Shown piece by piece: positions 21,619 through 38,807 of a DNA stretch of 64,000 nt. Each line of letters opens with the position of its first letter. Positions within the stretch are counted from its first letter, which is position 1. The stretch spans positions 868,001-932,000 of the forward strand of contig NZ_CP038492.1 of assembly GCF_004751985.1 (NCBI RefSeq), given 5' to 3'. The notes under the pieces are model-generated. The model had not been told where the DNA came from. It saw nothing but the letters and a program-made list of their open reading frames with translations, and made no database searches. Made by a program: the position numbers and the translations under genes. The DNA is from Rhodophyticola sp. CCM32. Lineage in GTDB: Bacteria > Pseudomonadota > Alphaproteobacteria > Rhodobacterales > Rhodobacteraceae.

Positions 21619-22050
21619 TCAGCCTGTCCGGGCCGCAAGGGCCTCGATCTGCGGGCGCAGCCCGTCCAGCATATAGCCTGCGGCGCGGGTTGCGGCGAGA
21701 ATCTCGTCTGTGGGCAAGGTGCCGGCCTGGGTCATGGCCCAGACAATGCTGGAGCGGTTGCCGCTGGCGCAATAGGCCACAACCGGCCCGTCTGCGCCTG
21801 CCATCGCGTCGGCCTGTTCTTCCACATTGTCCATGGTCATGGCCCCCCCGGTGATCGGGTTGAACACAAAACCCAGCCCTGCGGCTTCGGCGGCGGCCTG
21901 CATTTCGGCGGCGAAAAGCGGCGGCGGATTTTCCGCATCGGGGCGGTTGCAGATCACCGTGGTGACGCCCTCAGCCGCAAGTGTGGCCATGTCTGCGGGC
22001 TCCAGCTGCGGGGCCACGGCATAGGTTTCGGTCAGCGGGCGAATGTCCAT
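21619..22050 (-). CDS. TIGR01244-type protein-phosphatase/sulfurtransferase-like protein
   Basis: This 143-residue protein has a cysteine-based phosphatase fold with the CX5R loop CASGNRS. The N-terminus (IRPLTETYAVAPQLEPADMATLAAEG) and NRPDAENP match the group fused to, or encoded next to, metallo-hydrolases of the Blh type. It is the last gene of a minus-strand cluster with two YeeE/YedE half-transporters and an MBL hydrolase. That arrangement resembles the BigR-regulated sulfide detoxification operon of plant-associated bacteria. A role in sulfur handling is inferred from context. Confidence 0.8.
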   Translation of the reverse strand: MDIRPLTETYAVAPQLEPADMATLAAEGVTTVICNRPDAENPPPLFAAEMQAAAEAAGLGFVFNPITGGAMTMDNVEEQADAMAGADGPVVAYCASGNRSSIVWAMTQAGTLPTDEILAATRAAGYMLDGLRPQIEALAARTG

Positions 22051-22068
22051 CTTATGGTTTCCTGTCGA

Positions 22069-22494
22069 TCAGGCCAGTATGGCAAAGCGGTGGCGCAAAA
22101 ACGGTGTCATCACCATGCCTGCTGCCATGGCAAGAAGAAAGAGCGCGCCGCCCCATCCGCCCCAGGCCAGCGATGCCAGGGCCGGGCCCGGGCAAAGCCC
22201 CGCCAATCCCCAGCCTGCGCCGAACAGGGTTGATCCGATGATCAGATTGCGGCCCAGCCTCGGGTCTGGCGGGGGCGGGAAGGCGGTGCCCAGAACCGGG
22301 GTCGCGACACGGTGGGTCAGCCGCCAGGCCAGCGCCATCGGCAGGATCGCCCCGCCAAGCACGAAGGCCAGCGTCGGGTCCCACGCGCCGAAAATATCCA
22401 GCCAGCCCTGGACCCGGTCGGTATCGGTCATGCCCGACAGCATCAGGCCAAGACCGAACAGCGCGCCCACAAGGGCGGCGACAAACATCCGCAT
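22069..22494 (-). CDS. YeeE/YedE-family sulfur transporter half (PmpA/B-like)
   Basis: This is a small membrane protein of 141 residues with four predicted helices. The motif GAGWGLAGLCPGPALASL contains the cysteine conserved in YeeE/YedE channels, which move thiosulfate or related reduced sulfur species across the inner membrane. It ends 18 bases before the phosphatase-like gene and begins two bases after the partner half gene at 22496. The paired half-proteins together should form the equivalent of one full-length YeeE. Confidence 0.85.
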   Translation of the reverse strand: MRMFVAALVGALFGLGLMLSGMTDTDRVQGWLDIFGAWDPTLAFVLGGAILPMALAWRLTHRVATPVLGTAFPPPPDPRLGRNLIIGSTLFGAGWGLAGLCPGPALASLAWGGWGGALFLLAMAAGMVMTPFLRHRFAILA

Positions 22495-22495
22495 C

Positions 22496-22924
22496 TCAGA
22501 TCAGCCCCAGACTATGGCGGAACAGCACCATGCTGACCCCGCCTGCCAGCAGATAGAACATGGTGGCAACAAGCCCGCGCAGGGACAGCCGCGAGATGCC
22601 GCAGACCCCATGCCCCGAGGTGCAGCCATTGGCGATGCGTGTGCCGATGCCAACCAGCAGACCGGCGGCGATGATCACCGCGATATTGCCCGTCAGATGG
22701 GTCGGCGGGGCGCCAAAGACCAGCGCCACAAGGGCAGGGGCGCCAATCAGACCGGCGATGAAGGCCAGTTTCTCGCGCCGGTCATTGCCCCGGGCAGAGC
22801 CATCAAGAACCGAGCCCAAAAGCCCGCTGGCCCCCATGATCCGGCCATTGACCAGCAGAAAAAGCGCCGCCGCCGTACCAATGATCAGCCCGCCACGCAG
22901 GCCAAGAAGATATTGCGCGTCCAT
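22496..22924 (-). CDS. YeeE/YedE-family sulfur transporter half (partner)
   Basis: This 142-residue membrane protein carries the other conserved YeeE box, RIANGCTSGHGVCGISRLS, with two cysteines thought to relay sulfur species. NGRIMGASGLLGS near residue 27 is also typical. It is encoded between the MBL hydrolase and its partner half on the same strand with almost no gap, so one mRNA is expected. Substrate direction, uptake or export of sulfite, sulfide or thiosulfate, cannot be told from the sequence. Confidence 0.85.
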   Translation of the reverse strand: MDAQYLLGLRGGLIIGTAAALFLLVNGRIMGASGLLGSVLDGSARGNDRREKLAFIAGLIGAPALVALVFGAPPTHLTGNIAVIIAAGLLVGIGTRIANGCTSGHGVCGISRLSLRGLVATMFYLLAGGVSMVLFRHSLGLI

Positions 22925-22936
22925 GTCCTGCGCCTT

Positions 22937-23800
22937 TCAAAGTGTGTTGATCGGTACTTTCAGATAGGCTGTGCCATTATCTTCCGGCTCGGGCATCCGG
23001 CCCGCCCGCATATTGACCTGGAGCGAGGGCAGGATCAGGCGCGGCATGCCAAGGGTGGCATCGCGGGCCTCGCGCATCTCGACAAATTCCGTGATCGGGC
23101 GGCCCTGACCGATATGGATGTTCAGGGCTTTCTGTTCTCCCACGGTGGTTTCCCAGGCATATTGGTCGCGGCCCGGCGCCTTGTAATCATGACCGACGAA
23201 AATCCGCGTCTCATCGGGCAGGTTCAGAATTCGTTGGATCGAATTGTAGAGATCACTGGCCGAGCCACCGGGGAAATCGCAGCGCGCAGTGCCGAAATCG
23301 GGCATGAAAAGCGTATCGCCGACAAAGGCGGCATCGCCGATCACATAGGTCATGCAGGCCGGTGTGTGGCCCGGCGTATGCATCACATCGCCCCGCATCT
23401 GGCCGATATGAAAACTGTCGCCCTCGGACAGCAGCGCGTCGAACTGGCTGCCATCGCGCTGAAATTCGGTGCCTTCGTTGAAGATTTTGCCGAATGTATC
23501 CTGCACCAGGGTGATGTTTTTGCCGATCCCGATCTTGCCGCCCAACTGTTCCTGCAGATAGGGGGCCGCGCTCAAGTGGTCCGCATGGACATGGGTTTCC
23601 AGCACCCATTGCACATCCAGCCCTTCGGCTTTCACAAAAGCGATGATCCGATCGGCGCTGTCGGTTTTCGTTCGCCCGGAGGCAGGGTCATAATCCAGCA
23701 CGGAATCGATGATCGCGCTGGCTTTGCCTGCCGGGTCGCAGACGACGTAAGACACGGTGTTCGTCGCGTCGTCGAAGAACGGGGTGATCTCTGGATGCAT
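22937..23800 (-). CDS. MBL-fold metallo-hydrolase, persulfide dioxygenase (ETHE1/Blh)-like
   Basis: The protein has the metallo-beta-lactamase metal motif THVHADHLSAA, then GHTPACMTYVIGD with GDTLFMPDFGTARCDFPGG, the specific signature of ETHE1/Blh-type persulfide dioxygenases, and VGHDYK near the end. It would oxidise glutathione persulfide to sulfite plus glutathione. I choose the ATG at 23800, preceded by AGAGG and giving 287 residues; an ATG at 23827 and a TTG at 23833 also exist. It leads the cluster with the YeeE halves and phosphatase-like protein. No ArsR/BigR regulator is visible nearby. Confidence 0.87.
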   Translation of the reverse strand: MHPEITPFFDDATNTVSYVVCDPAGKASAIIDSVLDYDPASGRTKTDSADRIIAFVKAEGLDVQWVLETHVHADHLSAAPYLQEQLGGKIGIGKNITLVQDTFGKIFNEGTEFQRDGSQFDALLSEGDSFHIGQMRGDVMHTPGHTPACMTYVIGDAAFVGDTLFMPDFGTARCDFPGGSASDLYNSIQRILNLPDETRIFVGHDYKAPGRDQYAWETTVGEQKALNIHIGQGRPITEFVEMREARDATLGMPRLILPSLQVNMRAGRMPEPEDNGTAYLKVPINTL

Positions 23801-23858
23801 CGGAGCCTCTGCGGAGTAAGTTGTCATTGTCAATTATGTCGCGTTTTCGGGGCAGAGG

Positions 23859-25555: not shown

Positions 25556-26500
25556 TCAGGGCGCGATATAGGTCACATTCGGAAGGCCGGTGATCTGATC
25601 CATATCCGCCTCGTAGAGTTCGGTCATCTCTGTGACGAGTTGTTCGGTCCAGCCGGGAACATCCAGTTCCTCTTCGATCTCGTCTTCCAGGGCGAATTTG
25701 TCCAGAAAAGCGGCCGCGATGCGCCGCCGCTGGCTTTCGGTCCGGGGCGGGTGTTTCGCCAGATAGGCCTGCATACGTGTGAACCCGGCCGGATCAATGA
25801 TCTGTTCCAGCAGGTCATCCACACCTTTCAGCCCCATCTGCGATGGCACATCCGCCAGTTTCTGCAACAGCTCCCCCCAGATCAGCGGTGTGTCCTCGTT
25901 GTTCCAGACCGTGATATGGCAATCCGGGTGTGCCCGGCTAAGCCTGAACAGCATTTCCGACCAGGTGACCGCGCCGGGCTGCATGCCCTCTGAAAACTCC
26001 TCAAAATCACTGAACCGGGAGCCTTTGAACAATGCCGGGATCAATGTGGCGGGGTCGCGCATGGCGATGAAGAATTCCACCTGCGCCTGAGGAAACAGGT
26101 TGCGCAATTTGGTGGTTTCGCGTTCGATCATCGGCCAGATCTGCGCACCCCGCACAACCAGCCGGTTGATGCAGATAAAGCGCTGGTTGGACAGAACCAG
26201 CCGCTGGCAGTCTTCCTCATCCATGATCGCATCCAGCAGCGCATCCTGAATATCTTCTGAGGCAGGCATCCCTTTCAGGGCACGCGCGGCATCGCGTACA
26301 ACCGTGCGATAGCGCCCCGGGGGCGGCACCACCACACCCTGCTTTGTAAGCCGGGCGCGGTTTTTCAGCAGTGATTTGATCAGCTGATCCTTGTCAGTGC
26401 AGGGCGCACCAAGATGATAGACAACCTGCATGTCGGGATGGATCCAAATCGCTCGTTTTATGTTGCGCATGAACCTATACATGCGCCGGGCCGGACGCAA
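25556..26500 (-). CDS. Hypothetical protein, distantly sulfotransferase-like
   Basis: This 314-residue protein has VVYHLGAPCTDKDQLIKSLLKNRARLTKQGVVVPPPGRYR near its start. The layout recalls the phosphosulfate-binding loop and following helix of sulfotransferases, though the usual GxxKTGTT is altered. A later block QAQVEFFIAMRDPATLIPALF resembles the second cofactor segment (FIAMRDP-type). The C-terminal third is acidic and helical. I cannot assign a reaction. The protein could start at the internal ATG at 26470. It stands alone, convergent with gapR. Confidence 0.55.
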   Translation of the reverse strand: MRPARRMYRFMRNIKRAIWIHPDMQVVYHLGAPCTDKDQLIKSLLKNRARLTKQGVVVPPPGRYRTVVRDAARALKGMPASEDIQDALLDAIMDEEDCQRLVLSNQRFICINRLVVRGAQIWPMIERETTKLRNLFPQAQVEFFIAMRDPATLIPALFKGSRFSDFEEFSEGMQPGAVTWSEMLFRLSRAHPDCHITVWNNEDTPLIWGELLQKLADVPSQMGLKGVDDLLEQIIDPAGFTRMQAYLAKHPPRTESQRRRIAAAFLDKFALEDEIEEELDVPGWTEQLVTEMTELYEADMDQITGLPNVTYIAP

Positions 26501-26647
26501 TTCTTCTGCGCGCCCGGGGCTATTGTCTTTTGCAAAAGTGGCTGAGGCGACCTTATGAAAGATGCAGGCCCGTCAAACCCGGACCGGGGCTCATGGCGGG
26601 GGTGTTTCCAAAATCTTTTAGAAGATTAAGGATTATTGAAGTGCAGG

Positions 26648-26685
26648 GATATCCGTATTTTATAGTAGTCTAAAATATGGACATC
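26648..26685. promoter_or_regulatory. 38-bp inverted repeat, candidate operator of the amidohydrolase/ABC operon
   Basis: Two 15-base arms (26648-26662 and 26671-26685) match at 13 of 15 positions around an 8-base spacer. The arm consensus is GATNTCCNTATTTTA and its complement. The site is A+T-rich in a G+C-rich genome and lies about 100 bases before the start of the first operon gene. An in-frame ATG inside the repeat (26677) argues against the longer reading of that gene. Confidence 0.6.
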
Positions 26686-26784
26686 TCTATCCCCAAGGCC
26701 TGTTCCCATCCTTCCGTCTTCCTGAATTCTGTCTGTCAGGTGCCTTCACCGGTGCCGCAGGGGAGGAAACGGGAGGAATGGCCG

Positions 26785-28068
26785 ATGACAGGTCTGTGTA
26801 TCAATAACGCCATGGTTTGGGACGGGCAGGCGGCAGAAAGCTATCTGGCCACGGTTGTCATATCCGGCAATCAAATCGAAAAAATCATTCCGGCGGGCGA
26901 TCCACAGGGTGATCTGCCGTCAGACAGTATTGACGCCACCGGGATGAGCCTGATGCCCGGCCTGGTTGAGGGCCACTGCCATCCAAGTTTCACCGGGATC
27001 AACACGCCGGAAGAACTGGGCGTGGTTTGCCCTGAACGGCATATGCTGGAAACCGCCAGGAACCTGCGTCTTCTGCTGTCGCACGGTTTCACCTCGATTT
27101 TCGAGGCGGCATCGGCCAAGCCGATGATCGGTGTCACTGCGCGCGATGCGATCAATGAAGGCCTGCTGGATGGCCCGCGGATGCTGGCCGGCAGCCCTGA
27201 GATGACCACAACCGCCGGTCTGGGCGATGAACGCAAACGTCACCTTTATCAGGAAAGCTTCGGGTTGATCGCGGATGGGCCCGATGAATTTCGCCGGGTG
27301 TCCCGCGAATGTATCCGCGATGGTGTTGATGTTCTCAAGATCAACATCTCGGGGGATGAGTTTGTCAGCCATGCGCGCGCTGAAATCACCCCGACCGAAG
27401 AGGCTGAACTGGAGGCCGTGGTGAAGGTCGCGCATGCTTTCGGAAAGAAAGTGGCCGCCCATGCCCGGTCAAGCCAATCGGTCAAAATGGCGGTGAAAGC
27501 CGGTGTCGATTGCATCTATCACTGCGATTTCGCTGATGAAGAAGCGCTCGACATGCTGGAAGAGGCGAAAGACCGTATCTGGGTCGGCCCGGCTTTTGGT
27601 CTGGTCCATAACAGCACCAAAGAGGGCGAACCGGCGGGCATCACCAAAGAGATGGCCGAAGCGATGAACCTGTTCCGCAAATTCGAGGCGACCTGCGCCA
27701 CCTATCACGAGATCCGCAAGCGCGGCATTCGCGTGGTGGTCGGCGGCGATTACGGGTTCGCGGTGACCCCGATGGGGCAGAACGCCCGCGATATCGAACA
27801 TTTCGTCCGCTATTTCGGCTATTCGCCGGTTGAGGCGCTGCAATGCGCAACCGTGATCGGGCAAAGCCTGATGGGGCAGGGCGATGTGCTGGGGCAGGTC
27901 AGCGAAGGCTATCTGGCCGATCTGCTGCTGGTCCGGGGCGATGTCACCCAGGATGTCAGCCTTTTGCAGCATCAGGATAACCTGGCGATGATCATGAAGG
28001 ATGGTGTTCTGTTCAAGGATCCGCGCGACGGCATCCATGCCGCAGGACTGATCCGCGCCGCGGAATAA
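26785..28068 (+). CDS. Amidohydrolase-family metal-dependent hydrolase
   Basis: I start at the ATG after GGGAGGAA, giving 427 residues. The amidohydrolase (imidazolonepropionase/prolidase-like) pattern is complete. The HxH pair is in LVEGHCHPSF. A lysine for metal bridging is in DVLKINISGD. Further metal histidines are in AAHARSSQSV and CIYHCDFADEEALD, and the catalytic aspartate is in VVGGDYGFAVT. The closing beta-sandwich returns with GYLADLLLVRGDVTQD. It is the first gene of a ten-gene operon with a sugar-type ABC transporter. The substrate is probably the imported compound or a derivative of it, perhaps a cyclic amide or lactone-like ring. That is inference. Confidence 0.83.
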   Translation: MTGLCINNAMVWDGQAAESYLATVVISGNQIEKIIPAGDPQGDLPSDSIDATGMSLMPGLVEGHCHPSFTGINTPEELGVVCPERHMLETARNLRLLLSHGFTSIFEAASAKPMIGVTARDAINEGLLDGPRMLAGSPEMTTTAGLGDERKRHLYQESFGLIADGPDEFRRVSRECIRDGVDVLKINISGDEFVSHARAEITPTEEAELEAVVKVAHAFGKKVAAHARSSQSVKMAVKAGVDCIYHCDFADEEALDMLEEAKDRIWVGPAFGLVHNSTKEGEPAGITKEMAEAMNLFRKFEATCATYHEIRKRGIRVVVGGDYGFAVTPMGQNARDIEHFVRYFGYSPVEALQCATVIGQSLMGQGDVLGQVSEGYLADLLLVRGDVTQDVSLLQHQDNLAMIMKDGVLFKDPRDGIHAAGLIRAAE

Positions 28069-28121
28069 GGCGCGCGCCCTCACCCAGCTACGATAATTCT
28101 CAATACGCAAGGGAGGAAACA

Positions 28122-29261
28122 ATGCGTATCTTCAAAACGGCGGCTCTGGCCGTGACGGCAGGGCTTTGCACCGGTGCAGGCTTTGCCCAGGACACAACCG
28201 GATATGACGGGGTTCCGCGCACATTCCTGTGGAACCCGGGATCGGTCGAGATTTATGACGCATCGGAACATGCGCAGGACGGCCCCTATACAATCGGGTT
28301 TTCCAACGCCTCGATCTCGAACCCCTGGCGGGTTGCCATGCTGCACGGGATCGAAGCCGCCGCCGAACGCCATGCGGAGCAGCTGGAGCGGTTCATCATC
28401 ACCGATGCGGGCGATGACCCGTCAACCCAGGCTGCGGATATTCAGGATCTGATTGCACAGGGTGTCGATATTCTTCTGGTCAGTCCGGTCACCGCCGAGG
28501 CGCTGGAACCGGCGATCCGCCGGGCCAGCCGGTCAGGCGTGCCGGTGGTTCTGGTGGACCGCGCGGTATCCTCCGACGAGAACTATATCACCTTTGTCAC
28601 CGCATCCGATCAGGCGCTTGGCCGGATTTCCGCCCAATGGCTGGCCGAGACGCTGAATTTCGAAGGCGATGTGGTGATGCTGGGCGGTCTGGCCGGGGCC
28701 TCGCCCGCCGAAAACCGGATCGCGGCGGCGATGGAGGTGTTCAACCAGTATCCCGGCATCAATGTGCTTGATACGCAATACACATCCTGGTCGCCCGCCA
28801 ATGGCCGGACCATCATGCAGGCGCTGATCCAGCGCCATGGCGATGCGATTGACGGGGTCTGGGCAGATTCCGGCCTGCAGGGCTCCGGCTCGATCGAGGC
28901 CTTTATCGGTGCGGGCTACGAAGATGGCCAGATCCCGCCCCATACGGGCGGCGATTTCAACGCCATGTATCAGTTGTCGGTACAGCATGACGTGCCGATG
29001 GTCGGGGTGGATTATCCGCCCGCCATGGGCGCGCGCGCCTTCGAGGTTCTGTTCGAGGTTCTGGAAGGGGCGGGCATTCCGCGCCGGATCGAGGTGAACC
29101 AGCAGGTTGTCGTGTCACGCGATCATGAAACGGCGTCGGTTCAGGCGGATGTCTATGTGGATGAATACGCGCTGATGGATGCACCGGGATCGGTGATCAT
29201 GTCGAGCGGTGTTGGCCCGGATTACAACCCCGAGACCTTCTCGGCGGTCTATCCGCGCTAG
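28122..29261 (+). CDS. ABC transporter substrate-binding protein, sugar type (periplasmic-binding protein type 1)
   Basis: The protein has 379 residues with a signal peptide (MRIFKTAALAVTAGLCTGAGFA) and a ribosome site GGGAGGAAAC. The mature part has the RbsB/LacI-like fold: YTIGFSNASISNPWR, QGVDILLVSPVTAEALEPAI, TASDQALGRISAQWLAE, DSGLQGSGS and HTGGDFNAMY. It delivers the substrate to the permeases encoded downstream. Many of these blocks recur in the cytoplasmic regulator at 32781-34151, including GFSNAS.SNPWR, TASD, DSGLQG.GS and HTGGD.N.MY, so both proteins likely bind the same or a related ligand. An unusual feature is a roughly 30-residue extension between the signal peptide and the first strand. 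Confidence 0.88.
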   Translation: MRIFKTAALAVTAGLCTGAGFAQDTTGYDGVPRTFLWNPGSVEIYDASEHAQDGPYTIGFSNASISNPWRVAMLHGIEAAAERHAEQLERFIITDAGDDPSTQAADIQDLIAQGVDILLVSPVTAEALEPAIRRASRSGVPVVLVDRAVSSDENYITFVTASDQALGRISAQWLAETLNFEGDVVMLGGLAGASPAENRIAAAMEVFNQYPGINVLDTQYTSWSPANGRTIMQALIQRHGDAIDGVWADSGLQGSGSIEAFIGAGYEDGQIPPHTGGDFNAMYQLSVQHDVPMVGVDYPPAMGARAFEVLFEVLEGAGIPRRIEVNQQVVVSRDHETASVQADVYVDEYALMDAPGSVIMSSGVGPDYNPETFSAVYPR

Positions 29262-29274
29262 GCCTGACAGTATC

Positions 29275-29307
29275 ACGGGCAGGCTGCATCCTTTGTGGCC
29301 TGCCCGT
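29275..29307 (+). promoter_or_regulatory. Intergenic hairpin between binding-protein gene and ABC ATPase gene
   Basis: A 10-bp perfect stem ACGGGCAGGC / GCCTGCCCGT with a 13-base loop lies 13 bases after the binding-protein stop. There is no U-tract, so it more likely stabilises the upstream mRNA or attenuates read-through than ends transcription. This would give more binding protein than transporter. Confidence 0.6.
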
Positions 29308-29336
29308 ATCTTCGAGGCGAGATCGGGGAGGCGATC

Positions 29337-30860
29337 ATGACTCAACCCTTATTGGCCGCGCGCGGCCTGTCCAAGTCGTTCGGACCCAATGAGGTGCTGA
29401 AAAACCTGGATTTCGATGTAAATTCCGGGGCCTGCGTCGCCCTTTGCGGTGAAAATGGCGCCGGGAAATCCACCCTGATCAAGCTGCTGACCGGGCTCTA
29501 TCAGCCAACGGCGGGCCATGTGGAATATCTGGGCGCGCCGGTTGCCTGGGCGGGGCCACGGGCCAGCCTGGAGGCGGGTATCGCGGTTGTCCATCAGGAG
29601 TTTTCGACCCTTGGCGCGTTAAGCGTGGCCGAGAATATCTTTCTGGGGTCCGAACCCCGCACCCGGTTTGGCCTGATCGACCGTCGCCGCCTGAATGCGC
29701 AGACACAAGGCCTGTTCGATGCGCTTGGCATTGCCCTGTCTCCGCGCATTCTGGTTGACACATTAAGCGTGGCTGACAAGCAGATGGTCGAAATTGCCAA
29801 AGCGCTCAGGTCGGATGCGCGGATTTTGATCCTTGATGAGCCGACAGCGGTGCTGTCGCAGAACGAGACCCGGCATCTGTTCAAGCTGATTGCAGAACTG
29901 CGCGCCAAGGGGATGGGCATTGTCTATGTGTCCCACCGGCTGGATGAGATTTTCGAGATCTGCACCGATATCACGGTGATCAAGGACGGGGTGGTGACCT
30001 CGAAAGGCCCGATATCCGATTTCAACCATGACAGTGTGGTGTCCGCCATGGTCGGGCGCGATCTGGGGGATATGTTTCCGGCCAAACCTGACCTGCAAAG
30101 CAATGCGGACCGGGTTCTGACGGTTGAGGATTTTGTCGTTCAGCCGGGCGGGCCATCGGTGTCCTTTCATGTCGATGCCGGAGAGATCGTTGGCCTTGGC
30201 GGGCTTGTCGGATCGGGCCGGACCGAACTGGCGCTGGCGCTTTACGGGGCCGAACCTGCCACCGGCCATGTGGAGGTGATGGGCGAACCGCTTCCCTACC
30301 GGAGCCCGGCCAGCGCGATCGAGGCGGGCATTCTGATGCTGACCGAAAGCCGCAAGGATGATGGTCTGTTTGCCGCAAGTTCCGTGGCGCGCAATTTCAC
30401 CGCCACAACCCCGGGGCTGGGCGCCCATCACGCGCGGATCCCGCGCGGCCATGAAGAGGCGCGCGCCGGGGCCATGAAATCGCGGTTTGGCGTTGTGGTC
30501 GATCATGTGGGCCTGCCGATTTCGGCGCTCTCGGGCGGCAATCAGCAAAAGGTGCTGGTGGCCCGGCTGCTGGAAAACCGGCCCAAGGTTCTGATCCTGG
30601 ATGAACCGACACGGGGTGTCGATGTGGGCGCCAAGGCCGAGATTTACCGCATTCTGCGCCGATTGGCCGAGGAAGGCGTGGCGATCCTCGTGATCTCGTC
30701 GGAACTGATCGAGATCGTTGGCCTGTGCGACCGGGTCTATGTGATGCGCGATGGCGAACTGGCCAGTGAACTGACCGGGGCAGAGATCACCGAGGAGGCG
30801 ATCATCTCGATTGCCGCGATTGAAACAGCAACCCATCATGGAGTGCGCGCCGATGCATGA
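29337..30860 (+). CDS. Sugar ABC transporter ATP-binding protein (RbsA/MglA type, two ABC domains)
   Basis: This 507-residue protein has two fused ATPase domains. The first has Walker A GENGAGKSTLIKLL, a variant signature LSVADKQMVEIAKAL and Walker B RILILDEPTAVLS. The second has the degenerate Walker A LVGSGRTELALAL, typical of RbsA-type proteins, with a good signature LSGGNQQKVLVARLL and ILDEPTRGVDVGAK. I start at the ATG after GGGGAGG. It powers import by the two permeases encoded next. The stop overlaps the next start by eight bases. Confidence 0.93.
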   Translation: MTQPLLAARGLSKSFGPNEVLKNLDFDVNSGACVALCGENGAGKSTLIKLLTGLYQPTAGHVEYLGAPVAWAGPRASLEAGIAVVHQEFSTLGALSVAENIFLGSEPRTRFGLIDRRRLNAQTQGLFDALGIALSPRILVDTLSVADKQMVEIAKALRSDARILILDEPTAVLSQNETRHLFKLIAELRAKGMGIVYVSHRLDEIFEICTDITVIKDGVVTSKGPISDFNHDSVVSAMVGRDLGDMFPAKPDLQSNADRVLTVEDFVVQPGGPSVSFHVDAGEIVGLGGLVGSGRTELALALYGAEPATGHVEVMGEPLPYRSPASAIEAGILMLTESRKDDGLFAASSVARNFTATTPGLGAHHARIPRGHEEARAGAMKSRFGVVVDHVGLPISALSGGNQQKVLVARLLENRPKVLILDEPTRGVDVGAKAEIYRILRRLAEEGVAILVISSELIEIVGLCDRVYVMRDGELASELTGAEITEEAIISIAAIETATHHGVRADA

Positions 30861-31797
30861 CGTTCTTCGTATGACCCGCGCGCAGCCGGTGCATCTTGTG
30901 GTTCTGGCCCTGATTGCCATCGTGTTTGTCGTGGGGGTGGTCATCTCCGACCGGTTTGCCACGCCGCTGAATATCGCCAATATTCAGGATCAGATGGTGG
31001 TGCTGGCGATTGTCGCCCTGGCCCAGACCATCGTGATCCTGTCGGGCGGCATTGATCTCAGCTTTGCAGGGGCGCTTGGCCTTCTGGCCGTGGTGTTTGC
31101 GATGATCGCGGGGGACAATGCGGGCACATTCTGGCTGGCCGTGATCTGTGTTCTGGCGCTTGGGGCGGCGATTGGCCTGATCAACGGGGCGATCACAACC
31201 TATATCGGCATCCACCCGCTGATCGTGACCCTTGGCACCTCGACCATCATGGCCGGTGTGGCGCTTCTGGTGACCCGGCAGCCTGCCGGGTCGGTTCCGC
31301 TGTTTTTTGAAGATATCGTTTATGGCCGCGCCGGGCCTGTGCCCTATGGCATGATTTTCGTGCTGGTCCTGTATGTCCTGATCGGGGCCGCCCTGTGGAA
31401 AACCCGGACCGGCACACGGATCTATGCGGTGGGCGACAATGATCACGCTGCGGCCATTTCCGGCACACCGATCCATCAGACCCGGCTTTTTGTCTATGGT
31501 CTGTCCGGTGTGCTGGCCGCGATTGCCGCCATTTATATGACCGGCCGGTTCGGGGTCGGCGATCCGCGCGCCGGTGTCGGGTTCGATCTGCGGTCGATCA
31601 CGCCGGTGATCGTGGGCGGCACCATGCTGGCAGGCGGGCGCGGCGGTGTTCTGGGAACCCTGCTGGCGGTGATCCTGCTGGCGGTTCTGGGCAATGTTCT
31701 GAACTTCATGAATGTGTCCAGCTACTACCAGTGGATTGTCGAGGGCCTGATCATTGTCGCGGCGGTTTCATTCTTTGCGGGGGCATCAAAATCATGA
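30853..31797 (+). CDS. Sugar ABC transporter permease (RbsC family), first subunit
   Basis: This 314-residue inner-membrane protein has the RbsC/AraH-type pattern: QTIVILSGGIDLSFAGALGL, GAAIGLINGAITTYIGIHPLIVTLGTSTIMAG and the coupling region YAVGDNDHAAAISGTP. ITPVIVGGTMLAGGRGGVLGTLLAVILLAVLGNVLNF closes it. The start ATG overlaps the ATPase stop by eight bases and its stop overlaps the next permease (ATGA). The two different permeases should pair as a heterodimer. Confidence 0.92.
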   Translation: MHDVLRMTRAQPVHLVVLALIAIVFVVGVVISDRFATPLNIANIQDQMVVLAIVALAQTIVILSGGIDLSFAGALGLLAVVFAMIAGDNAGTFWLAVICVLALGAAIGLINGAITTYIGIHPLIVTLGTSTIMAGVALLVTRQPAGSVPLFFEDIVYGRAGPVPYGMIFVLVLYVLIGAALWKTRTGTRIYAVGDNDHAAAISGTPIHQTRLFVYGLSGVLAAIAAIYMTGRFGVGDPRAGVGFDLRSITPVIVGGTMLAGGRGGVLGTLLAVILLAVLGNVLNFMNVSSYYQWIVEGLIIVAAVSFFAGASKS

Positions 31798-32768
31798 CGA
31801 CGGCCACCACCACACCCCCGGGCAAACCGGCGCGCAATCGCGGCACCGTGCGGGCGCGCCAGACCCGGGAACTCTGGATGCTTGCGGGGTTTCTGGTCCT
31901 GATCTGGGCGATAACCGCGCTGTTGTCGCCGCGGTTTCTGGCGCCCGCCAATCTGCGTGATATTCTGGTCACCGCCGCGCCCCTGGGCTTTGTCGCCATC
32001 GGTCAGATGATGGTGATCATCGTGCGCGGGCTGGATCTGTCGGTTGCCTCGATCATGGCGACGGTTGCCGTCATTGCCATTGGTCTGGGCGATAATGTGA
32101 CAGTGATCCTGGCGGTCGGGCTGGTTCTGGGCACTCTGATCGGTGCGATCAACGGCTATCTGGTCGCGTTCCGCCGGGTGACGCCGTTTCTGGCGACGCT
32201 GGCGACGATGATCGTTCTGCAGGGGGTGCGCTTTGCCTATACCGGCGGCGCGCCCAGTGGCACTTTGCCCGAGACATTGCGCTGGCTGTCGACCGGCACG
32301 CTGGCGGGGTTTCCGGTTGCGGTGCTTTTGCTGCTGCTGGTGGGGTTCGGGGTGCACTGGTTGCTGGAATACACGGTTTTCGGGCGCCGGTTGAAGCTTT
32401 ACGGCACCAACCCGGAGACCGCGCGGATGACCGGTGCGCCGGTGCGGTTTCTGGTTGTGGCGGCATTTGCCGCCTCGGGCATGCTGGCGGCGGTCGCGGG
32501 TCTTGTGCTGGTCGGCTATGTGGGGATTGTTGATAACTGGACAGGGCGCGGATATGAGCTGGACAGTATCGCCGCCGCCGTGATCGGGGGTGCGGCGCTG
32601 TCAGGGGGCAAGGGCAGCGTGCCCGGCGCGCTGCTGGCCACGCTTGTGCTGGTCTCGTTATTCAATATCGTTGTCATCCTCGGCCTCTCGGTTGAGTTGC
32701 AACTTGTTATAAAAGGATCGCTGATCATCCTGGCCGCCGCGGTGTATATGACCCGGAGGGCGCAATGA
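31794..32768 (+). CDS. Sugar ABC transporter permease (RbsC family), second subunit
   Basis: This 324-residue permease, a paralogue of the preceding gene, has QMMVIIVRGLDLSVASIMATV, LIGAINGYLVAFRRVTPFLATLATM, LYGTNPETARMTGAPV and IGGAALSGGKGSVPGALLATLVLVSLFNIV. A basic 25-residue N-terminal tail (KPARNRGTVRARQTREL) precedes the first helix. It completes the transporter, and its stop lies 12 bases before the regulator start. Confidence 0.92.
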   Translation: MTTATTTPPGKPARNRGTVRARQTRELWMLAGFLVLIWAITALLSPRFLAPANLRDILVTAAPLGFVAIGQMMVIIVRGLDLSVASIMATVAVIAIGLGDNVTVILAVGLVLGTLIGAINGYLVAFRRVTPFLATLATMIVLQGVRFAYTGGAPSGTLPETLRWLSTGTLAGFPVAVLLLLLVGFGVHWLLEYTVFGRRLKLYGTNPETARMTGAPVRFLVVAAFAASGMLAAVAGLVLVGYVGIVDNWTGRGYELDSIAAAVIGGAALSGGKGSVPGALLATLVLVSLFNIVVILGLSVELQLVIKGSLIILAAAVYMTRRAQ

Positions 32769-32780
32769 CGGAACGGATCA

Positions 32781-34151
32781 ATGAGCGGGCACAAAGGCTC
32801 AAACATCACCCGGATCGCAACGCTGCTGGAGGCGTTCGACGGCGCGAACACGCCGCTGCCGACGGGCGTACTGCTCAGCCGGGCGGGTCTGACACGGGCG
32901 ACGGGTTTCGCATTGATCCGTGCGCTGGTTGCAAAGGGATGGCTTCTTCGTGCCGATCACGGGCTGCTGCAACTGGGCCCGGCGACCGCGCGCCTGATGT
33001 ATAGCCCGCTGGAGCCTGCCCTGGCCCATGGCACCGCCGCGCCGCGCCTGATGGCGCAGCCCCAGGCACAGACCGGCCCGGTGCCCGAGGACATGCCCGG
33101 CGAGATGCCCGGGGATGACTGGCAGAGCGCGCTGACCGAAACGGTTGACACATCCGGGTTCATGCGGCCCGGGCCGGTGCGCATCGGGTTCTCAAACGCG
33201 TCCCTGTCGAACCCCTGGCGCGCGGCGCTGCTGGCCTCGATGCGCTATTCGCAGCGGCTGTATGCGGACCGGCTGGAAGAGGTGCTTATGCGCAGCGCCG
33301 ATGATGACCCGGCCCTGCAATTGCAGCAGATCGACGAATTGGTATCCGCCGGGATCGACCTGCTGATCATCAGTTGCACCCATTCGGCGGCGCCTGCCAT
33401 CAATGCACGCCTGCGGGCGCTGGCAGAGGCGGGCCTGCCCATCGTGGCGGTGGACCGCCGCCCCAGTGATGCGGCATGTCTGGTGTCTTTCGCCACCGCA
33501 TCGGACCGTCGGATCGGTCGTATCTGCGCGCAATGGATGATTGAACGGCTGGGATTTTCCGGGCGTATCTGGATGTTGTCCGGTGTCGAAGGGGCCAGCC
33601 CTGCGATCCGCCGGCAGGCCGCCGCGCTGGCCAGTTTTGCGGCGCATCCGGGCATCACCGTGGAAACCGTGTCCTATACCGGCTGGACCGATGCGGGGGG
33701 GTATCGGGCGGTGGACCGTCTGCTGGCCCAGGGCAGCCCGCCGCCCGATGGTGTCTGGTGTGACAGCGGCCTTCAGGGGGTCGGGTCCCTGCAACGCTTT
33801 GTCGAGACGGGCGGGCCGCTGCCGATCCATACGGGCGGTGATCTGAACCGCATGTACAAACTGGCCCTGCATCACAAATTGCCGTTTGTGGCGGTGGATT
33901 ATCCTGCCGCCATGGGCGGGCGGGCGATCGAGGTGGCGCTGGACATTCTGGCCGGGCGCCCGGTGCAGCGCCGGATCGAGGTTCCGGCCCCGGTCGTGCT
34001 GCCGCGCGGTCAGGAGACCCGCAATATCCGTGCCGATATCTGGGCCGAAACCCATGTGGGATGGGGCCTGCCGGATGATGCCATTCTGTCCCAGGGGCCC
34101 AGTGTGCGCGATCTGGCCTTCACAGCCGATGGGGGAGGGTCAGGTGACTGA
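32781..34151 (+). CDS. Chimeric regulator: IclR-type winged helix fused to a periplasmic-binding-protein-like sensor
   Basis: Residues about 1-75 resemble the IclR winged helix: NITRIATLLEAFDGANTPLP, SRAGLTRATGFALIRALVAKG and LLQLGPATARLMY. A linker of about 55 residues rich in P, Q and A follows. From about residue 133 to the end lies a type-1 periplasmic-binding fold that closely mirrors the operon's own exported binding protein: VRIGFSNASLSNPWRAALLA, SFATASDRRIGRICAQWMIE, DGVWCDSGLQGVGS, HTGGDLNRMYKL and VDYPAAMGGRAIEVALDIL. No signal peptide is present, so it should act in the cytosol as a ligand-responsive repressor or activator. LacI proteins use this sensor with a different HTH; the usual IclR effector domain is absent. 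The probable target is the inverted repeat at 26648-26685. An ATG at 32765 in another frame was rejected. Confidence 0.85.
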   Translation: MSGHKGSNITRIATLLEAFDGANTPLPTGVLLSRAGLTRATGFALIRALVAKGWLLRADHGLLQLGPATARLMYSPLEPALAHGTAAPRLMAQPQAQTGPVPEDMPGEMPGDDWQSALTETVDTSGFMRPGPVRIGFSNASLSNPWRAALLASMRYSQRLYADRLEEVLMRSADDDPALQLQQIDELVSAGIDLLIISCTHSAAPAINARLRALAEAGLPIVAVDRRPSDAACLVSFATASDRRIGRICAQWMIERLGFSGRIWMLSGVEGASPAIRRQAAALASFAAHPGITVETVSYTGWTDAGGYRAVDRLLAQGSPPPDGVWCDSGLQGVGSLQRFVETGGPLPIHTGGDLNRMYKLALHHKLPFVAVDYPAAMGGRAIEVALDILAGRPVQRRIEVPAPVVLPRGQETRNIRADIWAETHVGWGLPDDAILSQGPSVRDLAFTADGGGSGD

Positions 34152-34776
34152 GAGTTCTCCCTCCCATGCGCGGGCCGTGGCCCTGTTCGCGGCACTGACC
34201 GATGCGCCGGTTGATCAGCTTTGCGCGCAGCCATCGGCCGTGGCGCGGGCCAGCGGGCGCCCGGTCAGCACCGGGCGGCGCGCGGCTGCCGAGGCCGAAG
34301 CGGTGGGCCTGTTGCAGCGCGATATCGACATGACCTACCGGCGCGGCCCCCTGGCCTTGCGCATCGGCCTGTCGGCCATGGGGTTCGGCGATCTGGCCCG
34401 CATGGTCGACCCGATCCTGATAGAGCTGCGCCGCAGCCTGCAGGTGACCGCCTGTCTGGCGGTTGCAGAGGGGCGCGGTCTGCATATCGGTCCGTTCTCT
34501 CTGGGGCGTGGCCCGGCCTATATCCACCCGTCGCCGGACTATCTGATGGCGAGCCCGATTGATGGGGATGGCCCCGAAACCCTGCGTCTGTTCGAAGGGT
34601 CGGATCAGGGGCGCTCCAGCGCTATCCGGGCCCTTGTGATCGGGCATCATCCGGCCCGGCATTGCCTGCTGGCGGTGTTTCCGGGCGCCGACCCGGCGCT
34701 GCAATCTGCGGAAATCGACACAGCACTCCGCCGGGCCAGGGCGCGTCTGTCACAATCTGAAACGCCTGACATATGA
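34144..34776 (+). CDS. Short IclR-like regulator (second regulator of the operon)
   Basis: A GTG start overlaps the previous gene by eight bases, giving 210 residues. The N-terminus (SHARAVALFAALTDAPVDQLCAQPSAVARASGRPVSTGRRAAAEAEAVGLL) aligns in layout with an IclR winged helix, though with a less regular recognition helix. YRRGPLALRIGLSAMGFGDLARMVDPILIELRRSLQVTACLAVAEG then follows the IclR linker helix and first effector strand. The effector part is short (about 110 instead of 170 residues). Together with the preceding gene it forms an unusual tandem: one IclR HTH with a sugar-binding sensor and one IclR-like protein with a reduced sensor. Heterodimer formation is possible but speculative. 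Confidence 0.65.
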   Translation: MTESSPSHARAVALFAALTDAPVDQLCAQPSAVARASGRPVSTGRRAAAEAEAVGLLQRDIDMTYRRGPLALRIGLSAMGFGDLARMVDPILIELRRSLQVTACLAVAEGRGLHIGPFSLGRGPAYIHPSPDYLMASPIDGDGPETLRLFEGSDQGRSSAIRALVIGHHPARHCLLAVFPGADPALQSAEIDTALRRARARLSQSETPDI

Positions 34777-35609
34777 CAGACCCGGTTGCGCAGCCCGGGC
34801 CTGATCTGGACCGGCACTATAAATTCTCTGAAATTCTGCCGGATTTTGCCGCCTGGCTGGACCGGATGGCTTTTGACAGCAAAGGCATAGCTGACACGAT
34901 CCCCTTGCAGCGACACCCCTATGGCCCAGACCCGCGCCAATGGGGTGAAACTGGCCCCGGATCGGGCCGGGGCGATCTGCTGCCGGTCTTTGTGCATGGC
35001 GGATATTGGCGGGCGCTGCGGGCCGAGGATCATCGTTTTGTCCTGCCCGCGCTTGGCGGTCTGGGCGGGCAGGTCGCCAATCTGGAATACCGGTTGATGC
35101 CCGCCACCCGGATGGAGGGGCTGGTGGCGGATATCTCTGCGGGTTTGCGCCTGATCATCCAGATGGAGCCTGCGGCGCGGATCGTGCCAGTCGGCCATTC
35201 CGCCGGGGCGCATCTGATCCTGCGCGCGCTTGCCCATCCCGATATCGCGGCACGGGTGGCGGGGGCGGTGTGCATCAGCGGTGTCTTTGACCTGCACCCG
35301 ATCGCACGCTCGTTTCTGCAGGCGGATCTGGGGTTGAGCGCGGAGGAGATTGCCGCGCACAGCATCCCCTCTGCCCCGCCGGTTCCGGTGCTGTTTCTGG
35401 CAGGTGCTGAGGAAACCGCGGCATTCCGCGAAGGGGCGCAGCAGATGGCGGGCTCTGCGCCTCTGGCCCGTTCCGCCCTGGTATCAGAAGCGCATCACAT
35501 GAATATTCTGCACCGGACCCTGACAGGCCCGGCCCCGCTGATCCCCGACATATGCCACTGGCTGACCACCGGACAGATGCCCGATATCGTGAAAGGACCC
35601 CCGCCATGA
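34773..35609 (+). CDS. Alpha/beta hydrolase (kynurenine formamidase-like fold)
   Basis: This 278-residue protein starts in an ATGA overlap. The oxyanion region HGGYWRALRAEDHRFVLP, the strand VANLEYRLMPATRMEGLVADI, the nucleophile elbow VPVGHSAGAHLIL (GHSAG serine) and the late histidine in SEAHHMNILHRTL fit carboxylesterase/formamidase-type hydrolases. It would hydrolyse an ester, lactone or formamide in the cytosol. Between an IclR-like regulator and an FAH-type enzyme, a ring-opening or lactonase role is a reasonable guess, but no substrate can be read from the sequence. Confidence 0.82.
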   Translation: MTDPVAQPGPDLDRHYKFSEILPDFAAWLDRMAFDSKGIADTIPLQRHPYGPDPRQWGETGPGSGRGDLLPVFVHGGYWRALRAEDHRFVLPALGGLGGQVANLEYRLMPATRMEGLVADISAGLRLIIQMEPAARIVPVGHSAGAHLILRALAHPDIAARVAGAVCISGVFDLHPIARSFLQADLGLSAEEIAAHSIPSAPPVPVLFLAGAEETAAFREGAQQMAGSAPLARSALVSEAHHMNILHRTLTGPAPLIPDICHWLTTGQMPDIVKGPPP

Positions 35610-36760
35610 CCCGAGAGTTCGACCTGCCGGAAGAGGGCAGTTTTGTCATGCGCATCTGGTCGCCAGACGCGACAGGGCCGATTGTGGCGCGGGTCGTGGG
35701 CGATAGGCTGGAAGATATCACCTCAATCCGCATCCCCACCATGCAGGCCCTCTTGGAGGCCGATGACCCCGCCGATCTGGCCTTCACAGCCCCCGGTGTG
35801 GCGGTCATGGATCTGGGCGATCTGGCCCGCAATGCGGTGGAACGGCCCGATCCCGCCAGACCCGTCCCGCTGGCGCCCTGTGACATCCAGGCGATCAAGG
35901 CCTGCGGGGTGACATTCGCGGCCTCCATGCTGGAACGGGTGATCGAGGAAAAGGCCATGGGCGATCCGTCCAGGGCCGATGACATGCGCCGCCAATGCAC
36001 TGCGGTCATCGGCGACAGCCTGCAGGATATCCGGCCCGGATCAGACGCGGCCATGCAGTTGAAAGAAACGCTGATCGAACTTGGGGTCTGGTCGCAATAT
36101 CTGGAAGTGGGCATCGGCCCGGATGCCGAGGTGTTTACCAAGGCACAACCGATGTCGGCGGTGGGCACCGGCGCGGCGGTTGGCCTGCACCCGGTCTCGA
36201 CCTGGAACAACCCCGAACCCGAAATCGTGCTGGCGGTGGACAGCCGGGGCCGGATCAAGGGGGCCACGCTTGGCAATGACGTGAACCTGCGCGATGTGGA
36301 GGGCCGCTCGGCCCTGCTTCTGGGCAAAGCCAAGGATAACAACGCGGCCTGCGCCATCGGCCCGGCCCTGCGTTTGTTCGACACCGGATTTGGACTTGAC
36401 GATATCCGCCGTATGGATATTGACCTGACAGTGACCGGACCCGAGGGGTTCACCCTGAACGGACACTCCTCTATGGCTGAAATCAGTCGTGACCCCGAAG
36501 ATCTGGTGGCGCAGGTTCGCGGGCCGCATCATCAGTATCCCGATGGGGTGTTTCTGTTTCTGGGTACGCTGTTCGCGCCGACCGAAGACCGGGATATTCC
36601 GGGCAAGGGCTTTACCCATAAACTGGGCGATGTGGTGCGGATCCATACCGCGCTTCTGGGAAGCCTGCAAAACACCGTGCGCCTGTCGACCGAGGCGCCG
36701 GAATGGACATTTGGCACCGCCGCGCTGATGCGCAATCTGGCACAACGAAACCTTCTTTGA
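35606..36760 (+). CDS. Fumarylacetoacetate hydrolase-fold enzyme, probable 2-keto-3-deoxy sugar acid dehydratase
   Basis: I start at ATG 35606 (ATGA overlap), giving 384 residues. The C-terminal FAH domain shows the metal site: the EPE of NNPEPEIVLAVDSRGRIKGATLGNDVNLRDVEGRSA, then KAKDNNAACAIGP and the loop GHSSMAEISRDPEDLVAQV. The N-terminal region PTMQALLEADDPADL and ACGVTFAASMLERVIEEKA resemble the roughly 390-residue group that includes XylX of Caulobacter (2-keto-3-deoxy-D-xylonate dehydratase). It would yield 2-oxoglutarate semialdehyde, the substrate of the next enzyme. That pairing is the best argument for this role. Confidence 0.8.
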   Translation: MTREFDLPEEGSFVMRIWSPDATGPIVARVVGDRLEDITSIRIPTMQALLEADDPADLAFTAPGVAVMDLGDLARNAVERPDPARPVPLAPCDIQAIKACGVTFAASMLERVIEEKAMGDPSRADDMRRQCTAVIGDSLQDIRPGSDAAMQLKETLIELGVWSQYLEVGIGPDAEVFTKAQPMSAVGTGAAVGLHPVSTWNNPEPEIVLAVDSRGRIKGATLGNDVNLRDVEGRSALLLGKAKDNNAACAIGPALRLFDTGFGLDDIRRMDIDLTVTGPEGFTLNGHSSMAEISRDPEDLVAQVRGPHHQYPDGVFLFLGTLFAPTEDRDIPGKGFTHKLGDVVRIHTALLGSLQNTVRLSTEAPEWTFGTAALMRNLAQRNLL

Positions 36761-36772
36761 GGATCACAACGC

Positions 36773-38278
36773 ATGCTGACAGGACAACATCTTATCGCCG
36801 GAGACTGGGTGGATGGACCGGGGCGGTTTCAAAACGCCCCGGTCAATGGCGCGGTGCAGGAATTTCATACCGGATCACGGGATCTGGTGGATCGCGCCTG
36901 TCAGGCAGCGGAGGCGGTGTTTGACAGCTATGCCGCAACCTCGCGCGCAGCCCGGGCCGATTTTCTGGATGCCATCGCTGATGAGATTGAACGGCGCGGC
37001 GCCGATCTGACGGCGATCGGGGCTGCGGAAACCGGGTTGCCCGAGGCCCGGCTTGAGGGGGAGCGTGGCCGCACAACCGGGCAATTGCGGCTGTTTGCCA
37101 GCCATATCCGGCAAGAAGCCTATCTTGATCTGCGCCACGATCCGGCCTTGCCCGACCGGGCCCCCTTGCCGCGCCCCGATCTGCGGATGATACAACTGCC
37201 GGTTGGTCCGGTGGCGGTTTTCGGCGCTTCGAACTTCCCGCTGGCGTTTTCGGTGGCGGGGGGCGATACGGCCTCGGCCCTGGCCGCAGGCTGCCCGGTG
37301 GTTGTCAAAGGCCATGAGGCCCATCCCGGCACCAGTGAGATCGTGGCCCAGGCGATACTGGCGGCGATCACCGCGCAGGGCATGCCGGCCGGCGTGTTCT
37401 CTCTGGTCCATGGCGGCAGTTTCGAGGTGGGGCAGGCGCTGGTACAGCATCCGCTGATCACCGCGGCGGGGTTTACCGGTTCGCTCAGGGGCGGGCGCGC
37501 CCTGTTCGATCTGTGCGCGGCACGGCCCGATCCCATTCCCTTCTTTGGAGAGCTTGGATCGGTCAACCCGATGTTTCTTCTGCCCGGGGCCGCAGGCGCG
37601 CGCGGGGCTGAGATCGGGGCCGGATGGGCGGGGTCGCTGAGCATGGGGGCCGGGCAGTTCTGTACCAATCCGGGCATTGCCATCGTGCAGCAAGACCAGG
37701 CCGGACCGTTTGTTGAGGCCGCCGCCGAAGGCCTGCGCGCAACCGCGCCGCAGACCATGCTGACCGGTGGCATCGCCGAGGCCTACAGGGCCGGCAAAAC
37801 CCGGATGGCCGAAACCAGGGATGTGCAGGAACTGGTCAGCGCAGGCTGCGACCAAAGATCGGCGGAGCCCGCTTTGTACCTTACGGATGCGGAAAACTGG
37901 CTGGCCAATGCGGATCTGGCCGAGGAGATTTTCGGCCCGGTCGGTCTGGTCGTGACGGTGCGCGATATGGATCAGATGGCGGCCATCGCCCGATCCCTGT
38001 CGGGGCAACTGACCTGCACCCTGCATCTGGATGATGACGATCACGAGGCCGCCGCCGGATTGATGCCGGTGCTGACCCGCAAGGCGGGGCGTATCCTGAC
38101 CAACGGGTTCCCCACAGGGGTGGAGGTCTGCGATGCGATGGTGCATGGCGGGCCCTATCCGGCCTCCACCAATTTCGGGGCCACCTCGGTCGGGACGATG
38201 GCGATCCGCCGGTTCCTGCGTCCGGTCTGCTTTCAGTCGATCCCAGGGGATTTGCTGCCCGCAGATTTGCGGGATTAG
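36773..38278 (+). CDS. Aldehyde dehydrogenase, probable 2-oxoglutarate semialdehyde dehydrogenase
   Basis: This 501-residue NAD(P)-dependent aldehyde dehydrogenase belongs to the group with a shortened N-terminus. The cofactor region is GPVAVFGASNFPLAFSVAGG with VVVKGHEAHPGTSE, the catalytic glutamate is in FFGELGSVNPMFLLP and the nucleophile cysteine in MGAGQFCTNPGIA. These variants match 2,5-dioxovalerate dehydrogenase of oxidative pentose and glucarate pathways, producing 2-oxoglutarate for the TCA cycle. It lies 12 bases after the FAH-fold gene and ends the operon. The sugar dehydrogenase and sugar-acid dehydratase of a full pathway are not here. Confidence 0.87.
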   Translation: MLTGQHLIAGDWVDGPGRFQNAPVNGAVQEFHTGSRDLVDRACQAAEAVFDSYAATSRAARADFLDAIADEIERRGADLTAIGAAETGLPEARLEGERGRTTGQLRLFASHIRQEAYLDLRHDPALPDRAPLPRPDLRMIQLPVGPVAVFGASNFPLAFSVAGGDTASALAAGCPVVVKGHEAHPGTSEIVAQAILAAITAQGMPAGVFSLVHGGSFEVGQALVQHPLITAAGFTGSLRGGRALFDLCAARPDPIPFFGELGSVNPMFLLPGAAGARGAEIGAGWAGSLSMGAGQFCTNPGIAIVQQDQAGPFVEAAAEGLRATAPQTMLTGGIAEAYRAGKTRMAETRDVQELVSAGCDQRSAEPALYLTDAENWLANADLAEEIFGPVGLVVTVRDMDQMAAIARSLSGQLTCTLHLDDDDHEAAAGLMPVLTRKAGRILTNGFPTGVEVCDAMVHGGPYPASTNFGATSVGTMAIRRFLRPVCFQSIPGDLLPADLRD

Positions 38279-38302
38279 GCTGCGTCTGCATTTATCTGAT
38301 CC

Positions 38303-38807
38303 ATGTCATTACACATGACCCGGCGCCGGTTACGCCTGGTCGTCGCGGATTTGGCAGAGATTGATCACACCATCCGGGTGCAATTGGAAACCTGCACAGA
38401 TCGGAAGCGTGCGCTGTACCTGATGCAGAGCATCAAGGGCATCGGTGCAGTCGCCGCCACGACGATCCTGATCGTCATTCTCGGGACATTTCGTGCCGAA
38501 ATGCCCTGCCGATCAATGAGTGCCAGAGATCGGGCGTTTACGCAAAAAGGCTGTCGCCAGCCTGGCGGGCGTCGCCCTGATCACACGGCAGTCGGGCCGG
38601 TGGCGAGGCCAGTCCTTCATCCAGGGCGGAAGAAAACCTCTGCGTGACGCACTCTACATGCCTGCAATCGTCGCGACCCAATACGAACGCATGAAAGCTG
38701 CCGGAAAACCGCCGAAAGTGGTGCTGACAGCTATCATGCGCAAGCTCCTCATCCTCGCAAATACTCTCGTCAAAGAAGGCCGAGAATGGGTTGAAATCAG
38801 AGCTTGA
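38303..38807 (+). pseudogene. IS110-family transposase remnant
   Basis: Two overlapping frames together resemble the C-terminal (Transposase_20) part of an IS110-type DEDD transposase: LMQSIKGIGAVAATTIL in one frame, then MPEIGRLRKKAVASLAGVALITRQSGRWRGQSFIQGGRKPLRDALYMPAIVATQYERMKAAGKPPKV in the other. The N-terminal catalytic half is missing, and at least one small insertion/deletion lies near 38480-38520. It is a dead fragment between the catabolic operon and a family B repeat. Confidence 0.8.

Follow-up and report, generated by a model that had tools for sequence, protein, structure and literature searches.

The 64,000-nucleotide stretch analyzed here (positions 868,001 to 932,000 of contig NZ_CP038492.1 from Rhodophyticola sp. 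CCM32; hereafter, the window) contains a CUT2 transporter operon in which a regulator, REG, joins an IclR-type winged helix to a CUT2-type binding-protein domain through a flexible linker. The gene for REG is followed directly by that for a second IclR-type protein, the companion COMP, and a conserved palindrome precedes the operon. It is rather likely that REG and COMP form one transcription regulator, which would repress the operon from this palindrome and be released by a ligand. The analysis shows the architecture of REG, its kinship with the exported substrate-binding protein (SBP) of the operon, the adjacency and fusion of the two genes, and the conservation of the palindrome; the heteromer, its stoichiometry, its binding to the palindrome, the ligand, and the repression are what we infer.

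The architecture of REG is confirmed by domain searches and by structural prediction. The original prediction had read an IclR helix-turn-helix (HTH) domain at the N-terminus, joined to a relative of SBP, and both domains were found in the one protein. With Pfam, HTH_IclR (PF09339) matched residues 10-55 at 21.9 bits, borderline for a single protein against the cut-off of 22, and reached 25.2 bits, above the cut-off, in the genome scan; Peripla_BP_4 matched residues 135-393 at 105.5 bits. Among 80 aligned REG members, 70 match HTH_IclR and all match Peripla_BP_4 (E<=0.01). The LacI HTH (PF00356), GntR (PF00392), and the IclR C-terminal effector domain are absent from the 23 families matched by these 80 proteins. 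The HTH is assigned to the IclR type because 70 of the 80 members match HTH_IclR and none matches the LacI HTH or GntR. Within the window's own genome, proteins from 11 IclR loci scored up to 37.9 bits with a profile of the REG HTH, and those from 10 LacI loci at most 2.7 bits. The AlphaFold2 model (mean predicted local distance difference test score, pLDDT, 89.9) shows the winged helix, a low-confidence linker at about residues 75-115, and a receptor fold from about residue 130. The 50 best solved folds listed for the sensor domain are sugar-type binding proteins; one of them was designed to bind allose, and another is the sensor of a hybrid two-component system. The N-terminus is the HTH itself, and no signal-like stretch was seen there by eye.

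REG belongs to a family with dozens of full-length members. Of the 7995 candidates scored in a search of 5.8 billion proteins, 274 matched at E<=1e-3, and most of the best 120 of the 274 are about 420-470 residues long. Databases label this family as sugar-transporter binding proteins; the names, given for only some of the entries, are of the type "substrate-binding domain-containing protein" and "ribose transport system substrate-binding protein". The scan of genomes of 84,980 species yielded 55 loci, 34 with a REG-type protein and 21 with only an SBP-type protein; in L047 and L055, REG is represented only by fragments at contig edges. The loci with REG and COMP span Alpha-, Beta-, and Gammaproteobacteria, according to record titles, and some of the bacteria that appear to use this regulator live in the sea or in soil. 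The distribution is rare and patchy. At E<=1e-60, the genomes with full-length REG numbered 2 of 198 sampled from the family, 7 of 390 from the order (with two further, partial matches), 2 of 385 from the class, and 1 of 398 from the phylum; the samples overlap, and each includes the window's own genome. The order sample lists three more genomes from the genus of the window, and REG is in none of them. In Comamonadaceae and Rhizobium (L024, L026-L028, L030, and L058), REG is divergent to CUT2 operons whose receptors are 25-31% like the window SBP.

COMP, which the original prediction had missed, lies directly downstream of REG in 31 of the 32 assessable loci, and the stop codon of REG and the start codon of COMP usually overlap. 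In the one other locus and in a single metagenome protein, the two are fused, and these two fusions fall in different clades; P0119 is a fused REG-COMP protein. A search with the two fused rows gave 85 proteins at E<=1e-30, whose lengths point to no further fusion. COMP is probably half of the regulatory machine. The window COMP has no Pfam match, and its IclR assignment is by fold only: its model has a pLDDT of 91.7, and its 44 Foldseek matches at E<=0.001 are IclR-family entries, in part by their titles. It has the IclR effector domain in a shortened form. HTH_IclR was detected in 16 of 27 COMPs (E<=0.01), and 26 COMPs are 15-34% identical to the window COMP. An origin of the REG HTH as a copy of the COMP HTH is unsupported, as COMPs and the genome's ordinary IclR loci receive similar scores from the REG HTH profile (median 18.1 versus 20.6); the COMP profile scores somewhat higher on REGs than on ordinary IclR loci (24.9 versus 15.3). 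A deep-branching REG subgroup (L037, L038, L051, and L128, the last outside the tree and assigned by its sequence) has a shorter COMP of 169-190 residues. In L037 and L128, an amidohydrolase gene is located nearby on the opposite strand.

The palindrome noted in the original prediction recurs at the heads of related operons. L013, L016, and L017 have palindromes of the same make ahead of the same first gene, and a matrix was built from these three sites and that of the window. The held-out set comprised 14 loci with the operon head on the contig and a REG of the window's clade or near it. In each of them, the matrix detected a site close to the operon head, with scores from 16.8 to 37.1; the matches in L019 (16.8) and L035 (18.9) are marginal, and four sites (L011, L019, L035, and L127) match more strongly on the opposite strand. 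No score exceeded 10.7 in three base shuffles of the window, and the highest outside these sites in the fetched loci was 15.8 (L045). The site is absent in L031, L033, and L034, which have a close receptor operon and no REG in the fetched flank. L032 (best score 4.1) was dropped from these controls because its contig ends after the permease gene. No site was found in 18 of the 34 REG loci: three begin inside the operon, two are fragments, and 13 are on other branches. A search for other palindromes in 14 upstream stretches outside the window's clade found nothing above shuffles.

The consensus of 17 aligned sites is CCATAwwTYGG-AnTAGT-CCAAwATATGG, that is, two CC-n7-GG blocks with six bases between, which would suit four helices. 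The asymmetry of the site is only mild and is biased by the choice of the better strand, so it is not used in the case for a heterodimer. The site is located about 100-130 bp ahead of the operon's first start codon. It tracks the operon head, which is mostly the gene for the amidohydrolase-family protein AH, and is SBP in L127. In L020, it stands before a flavodoxin-like gene instead of the amidohydrolase gene (2341-2370), which hints at a wider regulon. No strict sigma-70 promoter match was found in 26500-26820 of the window, and no RNA family reached gathering scores in 26400-38600. L129 contains a decayed copy (8378-10274) in which a shortened REG runs into the fumarylacetoacetate-hydrolase-family gene; COMP and the esterase gene have no match there, and the operator score is nowhere above 4.7. 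This locus proves little, because one deletion accounts for the loss of REG and COMP together.

The sensor domain of REG is 42% identical to SBP (142 of 341 residues, 270 bits with BLASTP), in keeping with the shared sequence blocks noted in the original prediction. A tree was built from 70 domains of sensors and receptors, three LacI proteins included, and long outgroup branches were flagged in it. All 34 REG domains formed one clade (support 98/99, and 100/100 once eight distant outgroup rows were removed). This clade sits within the window-type SBP family or next to it, at a large distance from the other CUT2 receptors and the LacI proteins. Its joining point is compatible with REG joined to the window-type SBPs (approximately unbiased, AU, test, p 0.32) and with all SBPs apart (p 0.20). 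Forcing the window REG and two close kin together with the window-type SBPs was rejected (AU p 1.4e-51). As judged from the tree, the fusion is old and single within the sampled REGs, and the likely origin of the sensor is an old capture of a receptor from the window-type SBP family. Thus, the proposed fusion of a receptor gene to an HTH stands as an old single capture, and its proposed origin as a duplicate made in the window operon does not.

It is likely from the conserved pocket that REG and SBP bind the same or a similar ligand. In their alignment, 50 columns have the same residue in both at a conservation of 90% or more, and one is conserved but different. The window proteins agree at all 13 positions that we equate, by motif, with the ribose contacts of RbsB. 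All 13 are kept in 24 of 34 REGs and 13 of 24 SBPs; nine SBPs, all in one subgroup, depart from REG at the same three positions. A matching receptor, as suggested in the original prediction, is nevertheless not required for REG. Eight genomes, several of them metagenome assemblies that may be incomplete, have a REG locus without a close SBP. In six (L012, L013, L015, L020, L023, and L025), REG itself is the best match to SBP, and the next match is at best 25-30% identical; the genomes of L016 and L017 have a 52% receptor elsewhere. In other loci, REG is beside CUT2 transporters whose receptor is 24-31% like the window SBP. In L012, L013, L015, L016, and L017, REG and COMP are kept together with the amidohydrolase and esterase-like genes, and the close SBP and its transporter genes are missing; in the first three of these, a different CUT2 transporter is nearby, with a receptor 24-25% like SBP.

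Table. Features of the REG-COMP operon; positions are those of the window.
Feature	Position	Strand	Evidence or remark
Candidate operator, inverted repeat GATATCCGTATTTTA-N8-TAAAATATGGACATC	26648..26685	.	15+15, eight-base spacer; conserved 30-bp core 26652-26681
AH, amidohydrolase-family protein, first operon gene	26785..28068	+	Amidohydro_1, 82.9 bits
SBP, exported CUT2 substrate-binding protein	28122..29261	+	Peripla_BP_4, 183 bits; signal-peptide-like N-terminus by eye only
CUT2 ABC ATPase	29337..30860	+	Domain/homology matches
CUT2 permease 1	30853..31797	+	Domain/homology matches
CUT2 permease 2	31794..32768	+	Domain/homology matches
REG, regulator with IclR HTH and binding-protein domain	32781..34151	+	Open frame, 456 residues; Pfam, BLASTP, family alignment, model
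REG winged helix, residues 8-73	32802..32999	+	HTH_IclR match; AlphaFold2 model
REG binding-protein (sensor) domain, residues about 131-430	33171..34070	+	Peripla_BP_4; solved-fold matches
COMP, companion IclR-type protein, 210 residues	34144..34776	+	GTG start, 8-base overlap with REG stop; fold evidence
Alpha/beta hydrolase, esterase/kynurenine-formamidase-like	34773..35609	+	Domain/homology matches
Fumarylacetoacetate-hydrolase-family protein	35606..36760	+	Pfam; 393 bits to PDB 9kkt
NADP-type aldehyde dehydrogenase	36773..38278	+	Pfam; 683 bits to PDB 3v4c

The genes of the operon (Table) imply a substrate class. The nearest solved structures to AH are amidohydrolases of the dipeptidase/arginine-carboxypeptidase type, and the amidohydrolase together with the esterase-like hydrolase suggests an amide- or ester-linked substrate. 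The fumarylacetoacetate-hydrolase-family protein is close to PDB 9kkt and matches 2-keto-3-deoxy-D-arabinonate dehydratase less strongly (66.9 bits); with the aldehyde dehydrogenase, it presumably serves a route from a keto-deoxy sugar acid via a semialdehyde to 2-oxoglutarate. The ligand of REG would then be a sugar-acid derivative. Outside the operon, at 21619-23833 on the minus strand, a metallo-beta-lactamase-like protein beside two small membrane proteins looks by eye like a sulfur-handling cluster.

REG/COMP is probably a ligand-released repressor that senses a sugar-like substrate via the captured receptor domain. REG would contribute a winged helix, the linker, and a cytoplasmic sensor that closes around the substrate of the operon or an early product. 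COMP would contribute the second winged helix on its shortened effector fold, which may serve assembly and perhaps a second signal. With two subunits each of REG and COMP, four helices would lie on the two CC-n7-GG blocks. The complex at the operon head would block transcription, and closure of the sensor on its ligand would free the operon. It is quite possible, and here put forward tentatively, that this is a natural two-subunit IclR regulator with the sensor on one subunit and the second subunit obligatory for DNA binding, in a 2+2 arrangement on a palindrome of 28-30 bp.

Three other readings compete with a single REG-COMP repressor. The complete IclR-type fold of COMP, effector domain included, and its fast divergence among loci would suit two separate co-transcribed regulators, with REG as the substrate sensor for the operon and COMP as an ordinary shortened IclR protein responding to another signal at its own sites. 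This is unlikely, given that COMP stays beside REG in nearly all assessable loci despite different neighbors, with a tight overlap of start and stop codons and fusions in two clades. The distance of the palindrome from the first start codon and the lack of a consensus promoter there are consistent with an activator, which would be switched by ligand to recruit RNA polymerase. IclR proteins of the PcaR/PobR type are activators that recruit RNA polymerase on ligand. Nothing direct speaks against such an activator, which we regard as somewhat doubtful. If the neighboring receptor gene had been duplicated recently and its copy fused to an HTH, so that the window operon gained a matched pair, this would account for the 42% identity, the shared pocket residues, and the adjacency in many loci. 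Such a recent origin is very improbable: REG forms a single old clade and persists in genomes without a window-type receptor, and the AU test rejects it as to timing.

The combination of REG and COMP resembles several known systems in part. Like LacI/GalR proteins, REG has a DNA-binding domain on a cytoplasmic binding-protein sensor, and a palindrome would control a sugar-type operon. It differs in the IclR winged helix, in a sensor with or within the CUT2 receptor family and far from the three LacI proteins tested, and in the long low-confidence linker and the second gene. IclR proteins such as TtgV, PcaR, and HmgR share the HTH type with REG and COMP, and COMP has their whole fold. REG carries a receptor in place of the IclR effector domain, which in COMP is shortened. 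The REG sensor shares its fold and pocket residues with CUT2 substrate-binding proteins such as RbsB and YtfQ, from which REG differs by the fused HTH and the lack of an export signal by eye. Among winged helices joined to a periplasmic binding protein (PBP) sensor, the nearest precedent is the AraR type, which has a GntR winged helix and a LacI-like sensor; the passage that cites it in PMC4052901 mentions no partner protein. Engineered chimeras of PBPs and DNA-binding domains follow the same design idea, and their part list includes the DNA-binding domain of TtgV, an IclR protein (PMC6079105); they are synthetic, whereas REG is natural and has a partner. Another study counted 80 companion domains for IclR proteins (PMC5882156), and the bare combination of an IclR HTH and a binding protein may be among them. 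Searches of open-access literature found no description of a family with the architecture of REG, in agreement with the original prediction.

REG represents a further, independent route from a transport receptor to an intracellular transcriptional sensor. The receptor relatives and REG are still 42% alike and can be compared side by side; therefore, the scenario proposed for the origin of LacI becomes testable. The annotation of the family, whose named members are called sugar-transport binding proteins, is corrected, and the conserved candidate operator is a direct handle for finding the ligand. If the two-protein model is true, a hetero-subunit design would be added to the IclR family, and REG/COMP would be a modular cousin of LacI of independent origin, whose HTH partner is encoded by its own gene and has been fused to it twice.
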